From: Chitinivibrionales bacterium
Lineage (GTDB): Bacteria > Fibrobacterota > Chitinivibrionia > Chitinivibrionales > FEN-1185
NCBI GenBank assembly: GCA_035516255.1
Contig: DATJAL010000052.1
Span: 62,001 to 126,000, forward strand
DNA: 64,000 nucleotides
Reading direction: 5' to 3'
A model generated the notes under the pieces. That model saw nothing but the letters and a program-made list of their open reading frames with translations, was not told where the DNA came from and did not search any database. Of this stretch, positions 2,243 to 21,314 are shown piece by piece. Both the position numbers and the translations under genes were made by a program. Within the stretch, counting starts at the first letter, position 1, and the number at the start of each line of letters is the position of its first letter.

Positions 2243-2974
2243 TTAATGGCGTTCGATGCTCGCCTCGTCCATCAACCTGCACCCTTCCATGAGCAGCATG
2301 GTGGTGCTTGCGCGAAAACGGGGCTTTTCCCCGATGTCGGCGCGCGGCGCGAACGAAAAGGTTCCGCTCATGCACTTGAGCACCTCATAAACGGCGCTCT
2401 CGTCACGTGTCTTTCCGAACTGGGCCGAAATCACGTTTCCCTTGACAAAGTTGAACGTCCCGTTCCCGACGTCGGAGGTGAGCGTGAGGATGCCGGTTTT
2501 CCTGCCGTATTCCAGCATCTGGAACAGCTCCACGGCGCACAGGTGCTCGAGGTCTCCGAGGAACGCCGACTGGCTGATCGCGGACTTGATGTCGGCGACA
2601 TTGATGACGTCGGTGGCCTGTAAATGGATTTGCGAACTGAGTTCCTTGAATTCACGGCTGATTTCGGCAGGATCGTTGACAAAACGCACGGAGAACACGC
2701 TCGAGGCGACGCGGATCTTGTCCCCGTCGGCAACGGGCGTCGGGGCAAGGGCATAGAGTTTCCGGCCGTTTAAATAGGTGCCGTTTGCGCTCCCGAGGTC
2801 GCTCACGGTAAATGCCTTCGACGAATATTGGTATTCGATCTGCGAATGGAAACGGCTGACGCGGGGTTCGATGAGGACGATGGTGTTCGTTTCGGCGCGG
2901 CCGATGGTCACTTTTCCCTTTTCAGGGACGGGCACGGGCGCCTCGGGATATCGTACCAGAAACAGGTTCGCCAT
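2243..2974 (-). CDS. FHA domain plus DUF4388 (PATAN-like) protein, 243 aa
   Basis: Residues 20-95 form an FHA phosphothreonine-peptide binding domain. The conserved GR (25-26), SRFHS (40-44), N64 and NG (69-70) are all present, so ligand binding should be intact. Residues about 135-225 (FLGDLEHLCAVELFQMLE, then GKTGILTL, then FNFVKGNVISAQ) are DUF4388, a module found with response regulators and gliding-motility or gene-regulation proteins. There is no kinase, phosphatase or membrane segment, so it probably acts as a cytosolic adaptor downstream of a Ser/Thr kinase encoded elsewhere. It stands alone, facing away from the GreA-tailed gene. Confidence 0.85.
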   Translation of the reverse strand: MANLFLVRYPEAPVPVPEKGKVTIGRAETNTIVLIEPRVSRFHSQIEYQYSSKAFTVSDLGSANGTYLNGRKLYALAPTPVADGDKIRVASSVFSVRFVNDPAEISREFKELSSQIHLQATDVINVADIKSAISQSAFLGDLEHLCAVELFQMLEYGRKTGILTLTSDVGNGTFNFVKGNVISAQFGKTRDESAVYEVLKCMSGTFSFAPRADIGEKPRFRASTTMLLMEGCRLMDEASIERH

Positions 2975-5512: not shown

Positions 5513-6202
5513 GGATGATAGGTTATCACGTATCGCCTCCATCACCGCTTCAGTGTCCGCCAGATTATCAAACACCACATCAGCCCCAGCGGCCAGCAGA
5601 TCTTGCTTTGTGGGATACCCGGTTGCCACTCCGACAGCGAGTGCGTCGATAGACCGCGCCGCTTCCATGTCGTAGGGCGTGTCGCCGAACAGAACGGCTC
5701 TATTGCTAACGGTCATATTGTAAAGGGCGCCGCAGCGCTTGAGTGCAAGCGCCGCCATTTCCCTGCGTTCGCCGCTGTCGGAACCGAACCCGCCAAAAGT
5801 GAAATAATGCCCGACACCGGCTTTCTTGAGTTTTGCCCGGGCGATTTCTTCGAGGTTGCCGGTGACAAGCCCGATATGCGCTCCTTGTTTCTTGAGCGCC
5901 TCGAGCAAATCGAAAACGCCGGGAAGAAGCTCAATGGTGTCTGCGGGATTCAATTCGTTGAACCGCTCGACCATCACCCGCATGCAGCGTTTGATCCCGT
6001 TATCAATTGTTTTTTCGTCAAGCCCCTTGACCCGCAGCACTTCCCGGATGATCTGCTGGTCGGTCATGCCGTAGTGCTTTATCACATTTGCCTCGGCCTC
6101 AACGCCGTATACGGCCTTGAGCGACATGAAAAACGCCCTGAGATGCGCGGACGAGCGGGCGATGAGGGTTTTGTCGATGTCGAAGAGGGCGATGAGCGGC
6201 AT
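5504..6202 (-). CDS. HAD-superfamily phosphatase (phosphoglycolate phosphatase-like), 232 aa
   Basis: Motif I is FDIDKTL near the N-terminus (D8 nucleophile, D10 acid/base), motif II is VTGN, and motif IV is FGDTPYDMEAA, all intact. The cap insertion after motif I fits the HAD_2 / Gph-PGMB type. It should hydrolyse a small phosphomonoester in the cytosol; the exact substrate is not readable. I start at the ATG complementary to 6200-6202, since the upstream extension is basic and unrelated to the family. A strong hairpin lies upstream and separates it from the GH3 gene. Confidence 0.8.
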   Translation of the reverse strand: MPLIALFDIDKTLIARSSAHLRAFFMSLKAVYGVEAEANVIKHYGMTDQQIIREVLRVKGLDEKTIDNGIKRCMRVMVERFNELNPADTIELLPGVFDLLEALKKQGAHIGLVTGNLEEIARAKLKKAGVGHYFTFGGFGSDSGERREMAALALKRCGALYNMTVSNRAVLFGDTPYDMEAARSIDALAVGVATGYPTKQDLLAAGADVVFDNLADTEAVMEAIRDNLSSHS

Positions 6203-6270
6203 GAAAGACTTCTCGCAAAGCTTGCCCCCGCGAAAGCGGGGGGACGCAAAGAATTTTAATAATAAAATAC

Positions 6271-6299
6271 AAAAGCCACACCGGTTTGGTGTGGCTTTT
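6271..6299 (-). terminator. Rho-independent terminator of the GH3 gene
   Basis: A perfect 12-base stem AAAAGCCACACC / GGTGTGGCTTTT with a 5-base loop lies 27 bases after the GH3 stop codon on the minus strand. On that strand it is followed by the T-rich run TTTTGTATTTTATT. The symmetric A/T tracts mean it could also work in the other direction, but no gene on the plus strand ends here. Confidence 0.85.
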
Positions 6300-6325
6300 G
6301 TCAAATGACCATTCGCGATAAACGG

Positions 6326-8743
6326 CTAATACGTCAATCCGAAACCATACTGATACAGCGGGGCGGATACGTCGCTGCCGACCGCGTCTCCCATAGTGCC
6401 CTCATTGACGGGCTCCTGGTTGTTGTTCGCCGGCCAGGTATAGGGGAGTTTGCCGACAAAATTATAGTCGCCGAACAGAACGTCGGAAACGCCTTCGCCT
6501 TCAGTGCCAGGCAGCCACGCGGCGACAAGCGCGGTACTGTTGTCGGGAATGGTGCCCAGAACATTGGGTCTTCCGGTGAGCAGGATGGTGATCACCGGTT
6601 TCCCCACACTGGCACAGGTCTGCACAAGGGCCGCTTGGTCCACACCGTTTTGCGTACCGAGCGTTATATCCGCTCTGTAGCCTGCATCTTCGGCATAGGG
6701 CGTTTCGCCCACGACCACCACGATCTTGTCAACGGTATTGGGAATACCCGTTCCGTTGGCGTAATAGGTGATGCTGCCGCCGCCGGCCGTGTTGATTGCC
6801 GCCTGCATGCCCTGGAGAATGGTGGTTGCGCCGGCAATGCCGTGCGCCGTTGTCGATCCCTGCCATGCGTCGCCGCCCGTTTCCGACCAGCCGCCGCACT
6901 GCACGCCCATATTGTCGGCCCACGCGCCCACCACGGCGATCTTTGCCGTCTTGCTGAGCGGCAGAGCCGAATTGCTGTTTTTAAGCAGCACAATTGCCTT
7001 GCGCACGCAGGCGCGGGCGACGTTCCGGTAAATGGCGTCGGAAAAGAGGGTGCCTAGGGTCTGGTTCGGCATCTGGGTGGTAAAAAGTCCCATTTCCAAT
7101 TTTACGCGGATGCACCTTTTCGCCGCGTCGTCGATCCTCGCCTGGGGGATCTGGCCGCCCGCCGCTCCCTTGAGCGCGTTGATATACGCGTCCGTATTGT
7201 CGGGCTGCATTGCCACGTCAAGACCTGCATTCAACGCATTGATCGGTCCCTGTGTGGTGCCGCCCACGCTTGCGTCGGTGCCCATGTCCCAGTCCGATAT
7301 CACATACCCCGTGAATCCCCACCCGTTCTTGAGCGTGTCGGTGATCAGGGTCGTGTTGCAGGTCATGGCGAGCTGGGCGTTGTTTGTTGACGAAGTGGGA
7401 AAAGAGTTGTACGAGGTCATGACGGCGGCGGCGCCCGCGTCGACCGCTGCGTGGAACTGGGGCAGGTGGATCCTGCAGAGAACGTCCCACGTGCCGGTGG
7501 CGGTCTGTCCCCGCATGATGCCGTCCGTTGTTCCGCCCGCGCCCGCAAAATGTTTGCACGTCGCGATGATGGAGTAATCGGACGAAAGGTCGGAGCCCTG
7601 CAGACCGCGGACCGCGGCACGGGCGAAATGCTTCGTAACGTCCACGTTCTCGCCCCAACCTTCGTAAACGCGTCCGTTCTTGTCGTTGCGCGGCACGTCG
7701 ATGCAGGGCGCGAAGTTTTCGTTGTTGCCCTGCCTGCAGCATATGCCGCAGATGCGGTAGGCAAGCTCGGTGAGGAGCGTGTCGCCGGTCGTGGACATGC
7801 CGACGTTATGCGGGAAATATACCATGGGGCCGCCGTGCACATAGTCGGTGCCAATGGTGACCGGGATCTTCATGCGCGTTGACATTGCGGCAGTCTGGTT
7901 CGACTGCTGCGCGGCCCAGGTGCTGCCTTTAAGGAACGAACCCGCAAAGGCCGAGGTTATATAAGCGGCATTCGACACCTGCACGCACTGGCCCACTTTT
8001 TCAGCCACCGTCATGAGCGCGAGGATCGAGTCCGTCTTGGCTTCGATATTGATGGACGTAATGGCGACATCGCCGACATTGTCGGAATAAGTCGTAAGGT
8101 TTACGATTTTCGGCGTGTACCCGGTTTTGCCCACTCGCAGCTGGTCGATGGCTGCTATTTTCTTGAGCGTCGGTGACGGCGTGGCCAGTGCTTCTGAAGC
8201 TGGTCCAAAGGCGTTCCGGCCCATATACGGCAGGCTCACCGAGGCCGTCTTCGCACCGTCGCTTATCCGTATGACGTAGGTCTGCTGTGTCACTTTCTCG
8301 AATTGTGCAAAAGGATTGAGGGAATAGCTGCCCTCGCCAAGCTGTTTGTCAAAGACGCGGGCCACGTGTTTCCCGGCAATGGTGAAAATATCCGCGGTTA
8401 TTTTACTGCTTCCCTTGCCTACGGAAAAGAGTATTGCGGAACCGCGGAGCATAACGTTAAATGCCGGGACTGATGCGTTTGATGCAGGAAATTGATGGAC
8501 CGCCGTGACACACGATTTATACATCGGCGGATCGGCAAGGTTCCATTCCGTGGGAGACGGCAGGCAGAAATCACCGTTTGGATTTGAGTAGACATAATCC
8601 AGCCGGTTCGCAATGCTGGTGTAATACACCATTGCGTCGGGAACCGGATTGCCGCTGCCGTCAACAGCGCGGCCGGTTACCATGGCGCCGGCAGGGACGC
8701 TCAGAAGGGCAACACAAAGTATTGCCTGGATCCATTGCTTCAT
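6326..8743 (-). CDS. Secreted glycoside hydrolase family 3, probable beta-glucosidase, 805 aa
   Basis: A signal peptide (1-20) is followed by a carboxypeptidase-regulatory-type beta-sandwich (21-100), a sorting-domain-like module (about 112-175, IFTIAGKHVARV to TYVIRISDG), and a full GH3 pair of domains (about 235-805). Catalytic landmarks are intact: KHF at 397-399 in the substrate site, and VISDWDMG at 481-488 with nucleophile D484. Expected activity is release of glucose from the non-reducing ends of beta-glucans or cello-oligosaccharides outside the cytoplasm. The sorting-like module is internal rather than C-terminal, which is unusual. The ribosome site GGGGGAGG sits 8 bases before the ATG. 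It follows another GH3-like gene in the same direction, about 200 bases apart. Confidence 0.9.
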   Translation of the reverse strand: MKQWIQAILCVALLSVPAGAMVTGRAVDGSGNPVPDAMVYYTSIANRLDYVYSNPNGDFCLPSPTEWNLADPPMYKSCVTAVHQFPASNASVPAFNVMLRGSAILFSVGKGSSKITADIFTIAGKHVARVFDKQLGEGSYSLNPFAQFEKVTQQTYVIRISDGAKTASVSLPYMGRNAFGPASEALATPSPTLKKIAAIDQLRVGKTGYTPKIVNLTTYSDNVGDVAITSINIEAKTDSILALMTVAEKVGQCVQVSNAAYITSAFAGSFLKGSTWAAQQSNQTAAMSTRMKIPVTIGTDYVHGGPMVYFPHNVGMSTTGDTLLTELAYRICGICCRQGNNENFAPCIDVPRNDKNGRVYEGWGENVDVTKHFARAAVRGLQGSDLSSDYSIIATCKHFAGAGGTTDGIMRGQTATGTWDVLCRIHLPQFHAAVDAGAAAVMTSYNSFPTSSTNNAQLAMTCNTTLITDTLKNGWGFTGYVISDWDMGTDASVGGTTQGPINALNAGLDVAMQPDNTDAYINALKGAAGGQIPQARIDDAAKRCIRVKLEMGLFTTQMPNQTLGTLFSDAIYRNVARACVRKAIVLLKNSNSALPLSKTAKIAVVGAWADNMGVQCGGWSETGGDAWQGSTTAHGIAGATTILQGMQAAINTAGGGSITYYANGTGIPNTVDKIVVVVGETPYAEDAGYRADITLGTQNGVDQAALVQTCASVGKPVITILLTGRPNVLGTIPDNSTALVAAWLPGTEGEGVSDVLFGDYNFVGKLPYTWPANNNQEPVNEGTMGDAVGSDVSAPLYQYGFGLTY

Positions 8744-17623: not shown

Positions 17624-17652
17624 TTGACAAATGCGATGATTGAAGGTATACT
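17624..17652 (+). promoter_or_regulatory. Sigma-70-type promoter for the rhomboid gene
   Basis: TTGACA (17624-17629), a 17-base spacer and TATACT (17647-17652) form a near-consensus promoter. Transcription should begin near 17659, which rules out an in-frame TTG at 17640 as the start codon and supports translation from the ATG pair at 17691/17694. Confidence 0.75.
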
Positions 17653-17690
17653 ATTTATCAAAGAGCGTTCGTCCTCTGGAAAACATCCTT

Positions 17691-19193
17691 ATGATGATAA
17701 TTCCCATCAGCACGGACCGCCATGACGGCAGCATCGGTCTAGCTTCGCTGATCATCATCGGCATCTGCCTTCTGGCACACATAGCCGTTGAACTCGACGC
17801 CCCGCGCATCGAGCGCCGCGCAAAGGAGGCCGGGAATGCCTATCGGGAGTCGCAATACCAGCTGCAAAACGACCATGCGTTTTCACTGGATTCGGCCGGA
17901 GACATCAGTGCCGCTCGAGTGCGAAAGGCGTACGATTCCGGATTTGCGGCACGCATTGATCACGGCGCGGATTCGGTGGCAAACAGCGTGCGCCAGCAGT
18001 CCCTGGAATACCGACTCATGTTCACGCCCGCGCATTTCAACATCGTGGCCATCTTAACGGCCATGTTTATGCATGGCGGATGGTGGCACCTCATCGGCAA
18101 CATGATCTTTTTTTACGTGTGCGGCGTGGCGATGGAGAAATACTGGGGGTTCGGCAGGTTTCTTATCGTGTATCTTTCCTGCGGCCTTGCGGCGTCCCTG
18201 TCGTACATGGGGTTCTGCGCGATCGACTGGCAGCGGATGGCCGGCACGCCGTGCCTTGGCGCATCGGGCGCAATCGCGGGGGCAATGGGCGCGTTTTTGG
18301 TCACGCATGCAAAAGCGAAAGTAAAGATGCTCTGGTTCATTTTCTGGTGGGGACGCGGGACTTTCAATGTGGTGGCATGGGCATATCTCGGGTTCTGGTT
18401 TCTTTCCCAGGTTGTTTTCCTGCTGCTTGACTTAAAGCAGACTTCGGGGGTCGCCTACACCGCGCATGTCGGAGGATTTCTGGCGGGCATGGCGTTCGGC
18501 TGGCTTGTCAAAGGCGAAGACGAGGCCTCCCTTGTGCAGCCTGCGCTGGCGGGCAAGGGCGCGGTGCGGCGCGCGGTTTTGCCCAGCCATATGACCGGCG
18601 GCGCCTCGTCATTCAACGCAAAGGCGGGAAATCTTTCGCTTATAGATCAGGCCGTGGAACGGGAGGCGCAGGCGATAAGGCGGGAAACGGGGCCACGGGT
18701 AGCCCAGAGCGAAACGGATGGGTTTGCGGCCTTGCAGCAGGGCGACCATGCCTCGGCCGCGCGGAGCCTGGCCTGCGCACTTGACAATTATCTTCAGGCG
18801 CCGCAGGAGCACAAGGACGCGATCGCGAGTATACTTGCGAAAATCCTGGAGGCCAAGCCGCCGCTTCCGGTTCCGGCCGCGCAGCTGTACCAGTGGGCAA
18901 AGGCGATTTACAAACTGGACCAAAAGGAGCTGGCGCTTTCGTGCCTCGACCGGGCGAGCCTTGACGCATCGAACCCGCATGTCCAGAAAAACAGCATGCT
19001 CAACGCGGCGGTCATACGGATACAAACCTACTACCAGCTCGAAACCGCAATCGAGGGCCTAAAAAAATTGCTCTTCATCGAACCTGACGGCATCATTGCG
19101 AACCAGGCAAAGCAGTATCTCGCCCAAGCGCAGCAGATGCGCGGGTCGTCAAACTTTTCCATTTCGCACTTCGGAGATCCGGGCGGAATGTAG
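17691..19193 (+). CDS. Rhomboid family intramembrane serine protease with TPR-like C-terminal tail, 500 aa
   Basis: Six or so membrane segments lie in the first 280 residues. The catalytic dyad is intact: GASGAI with S192 and AHVGGF with H259. The HGGWWHLIGNM motif in the N-terminal part is typical. Between TM1 and TM2 is a hydrophilic insert of about 80 residues. After the last membrane helix, 230 residues form helical, TPR-like repeats. Rhomboids cleave single-pass membrane proteins within the bilayer; the tail may select clients. I prefer the ATG at 17691 because it lies downstream of the promoter. It converges with the E2-like membrane protein gene, which has a single TM helix and could be a client (speculative). 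Confidence 0.88.
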   Translation: MMIIPISTDRHDGSIGLASLIIIGICLLAHIAVELDAPRIERRAKEAGNAYRESQYQLQNDHAFSLDSAGDISAARVRKAYDSGFAARIDHGADSVANSVRQQSLEYRLMFTPAHFNIVAILTAMFMHGGWWHLIGNMIFFYVCGVAMEKYWGFGRFLIVYLSCGLAASLSYMGFCAIDWQRMAGTPCLGASGAIAGAMGAFLVTHAKAKVKMLWFIFWWGRGTFNVVAWAYLGFWFLSQVVFLLLDLKQTSGVAYTAHVGGFLAGMAFGWLVKGEDEASLVQPALAGKGAVRRAVLPSHMTGGASSFNAKAGNLSLIDQAVEREAQAIRRETGPRVAQSETDGFAALQQGDHASAARSLACALDNYLQAPQEHKDAIASILAKILEAKPPLPVPAAQLYQWAKAIYKLDQKELALSCLDRASLDASNPHVQKNSMLNAAVIRIQTYYQLETAIEGLKKLLFIEPDGIIANQAKQYLAQAQQMRGSSNFSISHFGDPGGM

Positions 19194-19266: not shown

Positions 19267-21156
19267 TTATCGCTTTGTCGTGTCCGCGCCTGTCTTTGCT
19301 GCAGCCTCGGCCTTGTCCCGGGCGTCCCGTACCTGCCGCAAGCCGTCGAGCGCGTCGTCGTTCTTGGGATCAAGCGACAACACTTCCATATACTTGTTCA
19401 CCGCCTCATCGTAGGAACCGAGATTTTGGTACAGCTGTGCGTTTTTAAGGTCTTCCTCGATTTTGGCCTGTTTTTTAGCCGAAGACTGTCCGGTTCCCGC
19501 GCTCAGCTTCCTGGCAATGCCTTCAGCGGTCGGGGGAGGAGCGGCTTTTTTCACCGTGTCGGCGACCGGCGCCGGCTTGGGAACCGCGATAACAGGCGCC
19601 GGCGCGGTATCGGTCTTGACAACGGGAGCGGGTTTCTCCACGGCCGCAACAGGCGGTTTTACCTGCTCCTGACGGCCGGCCTTCTGCGTGAAAATGAACG
19701 TAATTCCAGCCGTGATAATAGCGAGCGGAATAATGATAAAGGAAGCGATCTGAATGATTTTGGCTGCGGATTGTTTTCCCGACTGTTCCGCCGGCGGTTC
19801 CTGCCACATCTTTGTGCCGCAATTGGAGCAGAAATTTGCTCCCCGGTGATTTCTGGCGCCGCATCGCCAGCAGAAAAATTCCTCGTCGGGTAAAGGTGCA
19901 ACTGGATCTTTGGGCATTGGTGGCTGACCTTTTGCCGCAGGCGCCTTGGTCTGGATTTCTTCGATCGCCGCCTGCTCGAATTCCACAATCTCCGGTTCCG
20001 GTGCGGGTTTCGGCTCTTCTCGGACAACCTGCTTGACCGGCGCCGGTTTTGGCGCGGCAGGCGCCTGCTTGACAGATGGTGTTTGCGCAGGTGCCGGTTT
20101 CGGTGCAACCGGAGCCGCCAGCTTGGCCGGCGGTGTTGCCGCCGGCGCTGGTTTCTGCCCGACCGGTGCGGCCTGCTTGGGCTGAGGCGCGGTCGGCGCG
20201 GGCGACGGTTTAGGCTCAACAGGTGATTCTTTCTTGACAGGAGCAGGCGCCGGCTTCGGGGCGGCAGGCGTTGCCTGTTGCGCCGGAGTCGGTGCCGCGG
20301 CCGGAGCCGCCTTTACCGCCGGCTCTACTTTCTTAACGGGAGGCGGTGTGGGCGCAGGCGCCGGTTTTGTCGCCTCACGGACTGCGGGTTTGGCGGGCGC
20401 GGGCGGCACGGTTTTTTTAGGCTCCGGAACCTCGGAAATGATTTTGGTTTCTTCCCCTTTGTCCAGCAACGCGGTTTTGCGGAAATCAACGGACTTGTCG
20501 CCCGAGGCGAGTTCTTCCACCATGGCAAACTGGGACGTGTCGGAGGCGATGACGATGCCCTCCGTCTTCCGCCCGTCTTCCGGCGGCGGCGTTTCGGAAA
20601 CAAGCTGGTCCTGAATGATCACCTCGGTGCCGGGCGCATCGTCGCCCGCTTCGGGTTCCTTGTAATTCAGATCCGCCTTGGACAGCGGCAGCAGCTCCTT
20701 GTTCCGGTCAGCCCATTTCGCCGCCTCGCTGTTGAGCGGGTTGGTGGTGTCGTATTTCTGGAACGCGATCATTCTGCCGAGCTGCACGATGAGGTCGGGA
20801 AGCGTCGCGCTGCCGCCCCAGATTCCTTTAATGTCAATTATCTCCGGCGCGATGTTGGGATGGAAAATGGGGGTGACGCGCGTGCACACCGGCTCGGCCT
20901 CGGGATATTTTTCAGGGAGCACGATCTCCACCACGTGCTCGTTTTTCGTTTCGATGGTGTTCTTGACCTTTTGCAGCCCGTCGATGCGGTACATGATGTG
21001 GTATTTGTCTGGCGGGGAGCCGAAGGTCTCCTTGACGGAAATGAACGGGTGCGACTTGAAGAGCCTGGAAACAAGCGTGAAATCGGACCGGAGCTGCTCG
21101 CCCCTGTCCAGTTTGCTCCTGCCGGAAGATGGCTGCTTTTTTTTGAAATTGAACAT
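19267..21156 (-). CDS. Membrane protein with E2/UBC-like domain, Pro/Ala-rich linker, zinc ribbon, TM helix and TPR, 629 aa
   Basis: Residues about 18-150 look like a ubiquitin-conjugating (E2) fold. The core strand-turn YPEAEPVCTRVTPIFHPNI corresponds to the E2 YP..PP...F....HPN signature, and NPLNSEAAKWADRNKELL matches the E2 C-terminal helices. However, the segment after HPN reads IAPEIIDIKGIWGG and has no cysteine, so thioester chemistry is unlikely. Residues 170-425 are a Pro/Ala/Lys-rich linker. A zinc ribbon with two Cys pairs (CWRC and CSNC, about 428-445) follows, then a TM helix (about 467-489) and a C-terminal TPR unit (about 573-610) outside. The start is chosen at the ATG complementary to 21154-21156 (GGGGA upstream); one 14 codons earlier is possible. 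Function unknown; it may be a scaffold or sensor. Confidence 0.7.
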   Translation of the reverse strand: MFNFKKKQPSSGRSKLDRGEQLRSDFTLVSRLFKSHPFISVKETFGSPPDKYHIMYRIDGLQKVKNTIETKNEHVVEIVLPEKYPEAEPVCTRVTPIFHPNIAPEIIDIKGIWGGSATLPDLIVQLGRMIAFQKYDTTNPLNSEAAKWADRNKELLPLSKADLNYKEPEAGDDAPGTEVIIQDQLVSETPPPEDGRKTEGIVIASDTSQFAMVEELASGDKSVDFRKTALLDKGEETKIISEVPEPKKTVPPAPAKPAVREATKPAPAPTPPPVKKVEPAVKAAPAAAPTPAQQATPAAPKPAPAPVKKESPVEPKPSPAPTAPQPKQAAPVGQKPAPAATPPAKLAAPVAPKPAPAQTPSVKQAPAAPKPAPVKQVVREEPKPAPEPEIVEFEQAAIEEIQTKAPAAKGQPPMPKDPVAPLPDEEFFCWRCGARNHRGANFCSNCGTKMWQEPPAEQSGKQSAAKIIQIASFIIIPLAIITAGITFIFTQKAGRQEQVKPPVAAVEKPAPVVKTDTAPAPVIAVPKPAPVADTVKKAAPPPTAEGIARKLSAGTGQSSAKKQAKIEEDLKNAQLYQNLGSYDEAVNKYMEVLSLDPKNDDALDGLRQVRDARDKAEAAAKTGADTTKR

Positions 21157-21314
21157 GTCGATGATCCCCGTTGGAGAACCCGTATTTGTCCTTACCATGA
21201 AATTATATTCTTCCGGAATCTATTTGTCAAAATGTTTGCTTTTTAGATGCTGAAAGCGATATTTTTTCCTGTACGGAGTGAAGAAAGGCTGGCTTTCGTA
21301 CGAACCTCACCATC

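Follow-up and report, generated by a model that had tools for sequence, protein, structure and literature searches.

The question raised by the locus analyzed here is what an E2 domain can do in a bacterium once its catalytic Cys has been lost. In eukaryotes, pseudo-E2s are a familiar class that is usually interpreted in the context of ubiquitin. Within the window, i.e., the complete stretch of 64,000 nucleotides of Chitinivibrionales DNA considered in this study, such a protein is encoded on the minus strand, with an ATG at position 21156 and a stop codon ending at 19267. An alternative, longer reading from an ATG at 21198 exists; the start at 21156 is supported by both orthologues, which begin at the same point (MFNF / MALF / MVNP). 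The features of the gene are as follows:

19267..21156, minus strand: whole gene, 629 amino acids, encoding pseudo-E2, Pro/Ala linker, zinc ribbon, TM helix and TPR
20686..21105, minus strand: UBC/E2-fold domain, residues 18-157, predicted from Pfam, PDB sequence search and an AlphaFold2 model with E2 enzymes as best PDB matches
20854..20862, minus strand: HPN motif, residues 99-101, kept in the alignment
20833..20835, minus strand: Asp108 in the catalytic Cys column; Asp in the alignment for window protein, two orthologues and paralogue
19897..20451, minus strand: Pro/Ala-rich linker, residues 236-420, 50% P+A, poorly conserved
19807..19875, minus strand: zinc ribbon, residues 428-450, CxxC...CxxC (Pfam, 1.1e-6)
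19693..19749, minus strand: single TM helix, residues 470-488, mean Kyte-Doolittle value 2.45
19477..19686, minus strand: short Pro/Ala linker after the TM helix, residues 491-560
19348..19440, minus strand: TPR motif, residues about 573-603 (Pfam), with 77% identity to the G001 orthologue across this region

An initial sequence-only reading of this DNA had noticed an E2 core pattern, and this pattern proved to be real. The Pfam profile UQ_con (PF00179) matched residues 71-154 of the window protein (1.6e-5, 25 bits against a curated cut-off of 27) and scored above the cut-off for the orthologues, for a paralogue and for the window E2 domain as searched in its genome. Screening of the PDB by means of phmmer returned E2 enzymes, at 3e-4 and weaker, and the Pfam UEV profile (PF05743) gave no match in the window protein up to E = 1. 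Furthermore, the E2 domain was modelled with AlphaFold2, template-free and from an alignment of 37 relatives, resulting in a pLDDT of 91.1 and a pTM of 0.85. The model includes a helix (residues 18-33), meandering strands and two further helices (119-130 and 143-151). All 50 PDB matches listed by Foldseek represent E2 enzymes, either on their own or as part of a complex, with E-values from 9.6e-8 to 6.7e-6, a probability of 1.00 and moderate TM-scores of mostly 0.5-0.7, so that no non-UBC fold ranked ahead of them. Profile, PDB search and model with Foldseek together rule out a chance match to the HPN motif; as judged from sequence comparison and modelling, residues 18-157 are a genuine UBC/E2-fold domain.

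The remaining architecture was likewise borne out by Pfam and hydrophobicity. The zinc ribbon cysteines C429, C432, C443 and C446 are kept in both orthologues, the TM candidate at residues 470-488 is the most hydrophobic stretch of the protein, and one TPR follows. NCBIfam gave weak matches only, to this TPR (Amuc_1098 family), and as a candidate defence system the protein was dismissed, having no PADLOC match. The long Pro/Ala-rich stalk, which had been listed together with the outer TPR, was misplaced: residues 236-420 connect the E2 domain to the zinc ribbon and presumably lie in the cytosol, and the stretch following the TM helix (491-560) is shorter. The zinc ribbon and the E2 domain would most naturally be cytosolic and the TPR periplasmic. 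The positive-inside rule is clear for the paralogue only, with five K/R before and none after its TM helix. Overall, the view of a membrane-anchored pseudo-E2 is supported; the signalling or quality-control scaffold also suggested there would be no more than a candidate role.

Bacterial and archaeal species genomes were scanned, yielding 193 relatives, of which 80 were readable. The catalytic column corresponds to residue 108 and holds Cys in 77 of these 80 (in L081 it is shifted by the alignment), within FHPNIxPxxICIGDHW or a modified form of this signature. As had been claimed, no Cys follows the HPN motif of the window protein. Asp occupies the column here (IDIKGIW), in the orthologues L010 of G001 (IDIKEYW) and L011 of G002 (IDIRHIW), and in the paralogue L006 (IDIKEEW), which is encoded at a distance of 58 kb within the window genome and is devoid of a TPR. 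An active E2 with a displaced Cys was rejected, as the alignment puts Asp into the Cys column; C91 is a separate conserved Cys also found in active relatives. Among 33 active rows, no variation occurs at C108, D111, R125 and S139, and conservation is 82-88% at R86, R92, G110, H112 and E117; all nine are changed in all four members of the window family. The fold residues G46, PP48-49, Y52, YP84-85, FHPN98-101, W113, Q133, P140, AA145-146 and W148 are kept in all four. Accordingly, the active site, together with conserved surface residues, was lost and the fold was retained. Further variation was observed among the Cys relatives. L049 and L082 form a subgroup with VCTSDFH in place of ICIGDHW, and the genome of L082 (G172) contains the Cys, with no operon JAMM found. 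In Armatimonadetes (L081:2927-7495), a diverged E2 domain ends an ORF of 1522 amino acids, the rest of which resembles an NTPase with WD40 repeats, possibly representing a fusion or a missed start.

The third Cys-less row among the 80, L076 (titled Deltaproteobacteria), also possesses Asp and lost the same residues except G110. It groups with the window family in two trees (support 99/90 and 96/93), on a long branch. A search around its phylum revealed a relative in six additional genomes, five of which encode proteins of about 790-820 amino acids (L112-L116) arranged as E2, TPR, TM and TPR, in which Cys is replaced by Arg or Ala and HPN by HPD or HPA. The corresponding loci L118-L122 (G455, G226, G262, G291 and G189; about 7-10 kb per locus) all share parts of one neighbourhood, namely genes resembling dsrAB, kpsF, a biotin ligase and secDF (named by eye), and no ubiquitin-type gene was seen beside the five E2 genes. 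These proteins seem to represent more degenerate pseudo-E2s that were inherited vertically. The best tree separates them from the window family; grouping both in one clade is also compatible with the data (p-AU 0.131). Like the window protein, the members of this second group (L076 and L112-L116) combine an N-terminal dead E2 domain, a TM helix and a C-terminal TPR in genomes without the operon JAMM. They differ in having TPRs on both sides of the TM helix and no zinc ribbon that could be found, as well as in the residues at the Cys position (Asp in L076, otherwise Arg or Ala) and in the HPD/HPA motif of L112-L116.

Relatives retaining the Cys are encoded in conjugation operons. At locus L014, the gene order is ThiF E1, JAMM with TM, a multi-TM FHA protein, Prok-RING_1 with TM, RING-trypsin and E2 with zinc fingers, and the operon at L065 opens with a YukD-type Ubl. 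A JAMM gene adjoins the E2 gene at 25 of 36 Cys loci having at least 6 kb upstream, as deduced from a crude motif count. One component of the L014 operon (5646-7037) combines a RING-type zinc finger, a TM helix and a trypsin-like protease in one protein and would couple conjugation to proteolysis by an envelope protease.

Regarding the window protein, the absence of neighbouring ubiquitin-pathway genes, already remarked upon from the sequence, was confirmed and extended to the whole genome. The operon JAMM, the operon RING protein and YukD gave no match in the window genome (G000), in a relative of the same genus (G001) or in one of the same family (G002), and the FHA-TM protein of the operon was matched over its FHA part only in all three. 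The window genome contains merely short ThiF-fold matches (61 and 35 bits), and the broader Prok-JAB family was not found there. Its UQ_con proteins are two in number, the window protein and the paralogue, both Cys-less. For comparison, G029, a genome of the same order with a Cys E2, features JAMM (465 bits), RING (298 bits), FHA-TM (544 bits) and the end of an E1; the YukD search in G029 was without match. The operon JAMM is present in none of nine genomes with a Cys-less E2 (G000, G001, G002, G168, G189, G226, G262, G291 and G455) and in seven of eight with a Cys E2 (G029, G169, G170, G171, G173, G174 and G175, but not G172), counts that refer to MAGs, which can be incomplete, and to genomes that are not independent samples since some are related. 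G251 encodes a more distantly related Cys E2, with a weak JAMM match located 2 kb from it. The E2 domain is rare in the phylum to which the window belongs, being found in 4 of 168 genomes.

Since almost no matching machinery was found in the genome, the dead E2 probably took on a new role in docking. On balance, we favour the explanation that the E2 domain became an orphan when its conjugation cascade was lost and persisted, tethered to the membrane, as a module for binding comparable to UEVs, i.e., a transmembrane adaptor. Its ancestor would have been the E2 of a bacterial E1-JAMM-RING-E2 conjugation operon; the lineage would then have lost the cascade, the catalytic Cys would have become Asp, and the E2 domain would have been kept for binding. 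The protein may be tethered to the inner membrane, its single TM helix separating a cytosolic part (E2 domain, flexible linker and zinc ribbon) from a periplasmic part (short linker and TPR). Its E2 face would dock a cytosolic partner and its TPR an envelope partner, with the flexible linkers providing reach, in a working mode resembling that of eukaryotic UEVs such as Peo/AKTIP. The recurrence of the dead E2, TM and TPR architecture in L076 and L112-L116 speaks for this proposal; counting against it is a stand-alone Prok-JAB gene beside a MoeB-like E1 gene in G001 (C34) and G002 (C117; loci L095, L096, L124 and L125 for both genomes), which probably represents a sulfur-carrier operon of sulfur metabolism.

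The same JAMM-E1 pairs would suit a different explanation, in which the protein functions as a UEV-type subunit within a hidden Ubl system, directing conjugation by binding a Ubl or an unrecognized active E2 at the membrane. Eukaryotic UEVs such as Mms2 and Tsg101 work in this way, binding Ubl or active E2. However, the window genome was found to contain neither Prok-JAB nor the YukD Ubl, its UQ_con complement is limited to the two dead proteins, and no Ubl or E1 gene was seen beside the orthologues. Moreover, the conserved surface residues R86, R92, E117 and R125 are lost, and a hidden system therefore appears unlikely.

The gene neighbourhood was also inspected for partners. In the window, the pseudo-E2 gene is flanked on the opposite strand by genes for a rhomboid protein and a metallo-beta-lactamase-fold hydrolase; the orthologue at L007 is accompanied by EF-P/EarP-like genes and that at L008 by a flavoprotein-like gene (named by eye). 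The rhomboid-family membrane protein (17640-19193, plus strand) is encoded convergently with the pseudo-E2 and is absent beside the L007 orthologue. The two adjoining genes were discarded as partners, being located on the other strand and not common to the orthologues. As the neighbourhood differs between orthologues, the suggested adaptor role draws on architecture and on analogy.

A possible cytosolic partner, weakly linked, is an FHA-DUF4388 protein. Its gene (L006:9281-10162, plus strand) follows that of the pseudo-E2 paralogue directly on the same strand, and a paralogous FHA-DUF4388 protein is encoded in the window (2243-2974, minus strand). The adaptor could hence pair with this protein in a phosphorylation-dependent membrane signalling module, and active E2 operons also include an FHA protein. 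The latter, however, has a different, multi-TM architecture, the window copy is located 16 kb from the pseudo-E2 gene, and neither L007 nor L008 has an FHA-DUF4388 gene close to the orthologue, making such a module decidedly improbable.

Selection on the E2 domain bears on a further explanation, namely that it is a decaying remnant, drifting since the loss of the cascade, and that zinc ribbon, TM helix and TPR do the work. The missing cascade and the freely diverging linkers (17-29% identity) would be expected in this case. Yet the E2 domain is 64% and 50% identical to those of the two orthologues and its fold core is intact. Comparison of the window with G001 resulted in a dN of 0.25 and a dS of 1.16, the latter near saturation, giving a dN/dS of about 0.2 (Nei-Gojobori), which indicates that the domain is maintained under purifying selection. 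Asp108 is, moreover, the same in four members, including the paralogue without a TPR, and decay is considered very unlikely. Finally, Asp108 might itself be catalytic in an enzyme of a new kind, as its identity in all four family members and L076 could suggest, but D111, H112, R125 and S139 were lost along with the Cys, the more distant Cys-less group features Arg or Ala at this position, and we know of no such activity, so that this idea is hardly credible.

Several known systems resemble the proposed orphaned adaptor in part. E2/RING operons have been described for Planctomycetes, Acidobacteria and Actinobacteria (Burroughs et al. 2011, as cited in PMC4197634). The E2s of E1-JAMM-FHA-RING-E2 operons (Planctomycetota, Riflebacteria and others) share the same E2 domain (about 35-45% identity), the HPN motif and the core residues, often with zinc fingers behind the E2 domain; they possess the Cys, the ICIGDHW signature and the rest of the cascade in adjoining genes, whereas the window protein features Asp, a TM helix and a TPR, with no cascade found in the genome. 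Eukaryotic UEVs (Tsg101, Mms2 and AKTIP/Peo) also represent UBC folds without a catalytic Cys. In the Drosophila AKTIP homologue Peo, a UEV that binds other proteins, the same Cys-to-Asp change occurred (PMC4481407). UEVs act by binding proteins, and binding is what is proposed by analogy for the window protein; unlike them, it descends from bacterial E2s, has no Pfam UEV match and resides in a cell without ubiquitin. Inactive bacterial E2/RWD-like domains are known from polyUbl operons of type 6e (Iyer et al. 2006, PMC1779556). These are likewise UBC-fold domains without Cys, but they are encoded beside or fused to polyUbl with JAB-E1, none of which was seen near the window gene, and the window domain bears a far greater similarity to active UQ_con E2s. 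The term "novel", as used in the sequence-only reading, has been toned down because the close relatives are active E2s belonging to published operon types; for an orphaned, membrane-tethered pseudo-E2, no description was found in the limited open literature searched.

Retention of the E2 fold under selection, in genomes for which the searches did not recover most of the cascade, would demonstrate that it can serve for docking in its own right. More broadly, and with somewhat less than even confidence, it is proposed that bacteria repeatedly made E2 into a membrane-anchored, non-catalytic adaptor of the pseudo-E2, TM and TPR type, without ubiquitin, E1 or E3, as a counterpart of UEV/AKTIP with its own cytosolic and periplasmic ligands. 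Since active relatives with complete operons exist in other bacteria, binding by a dead E2 and its domestication after loss of the cascade would be testable in a simple setting.
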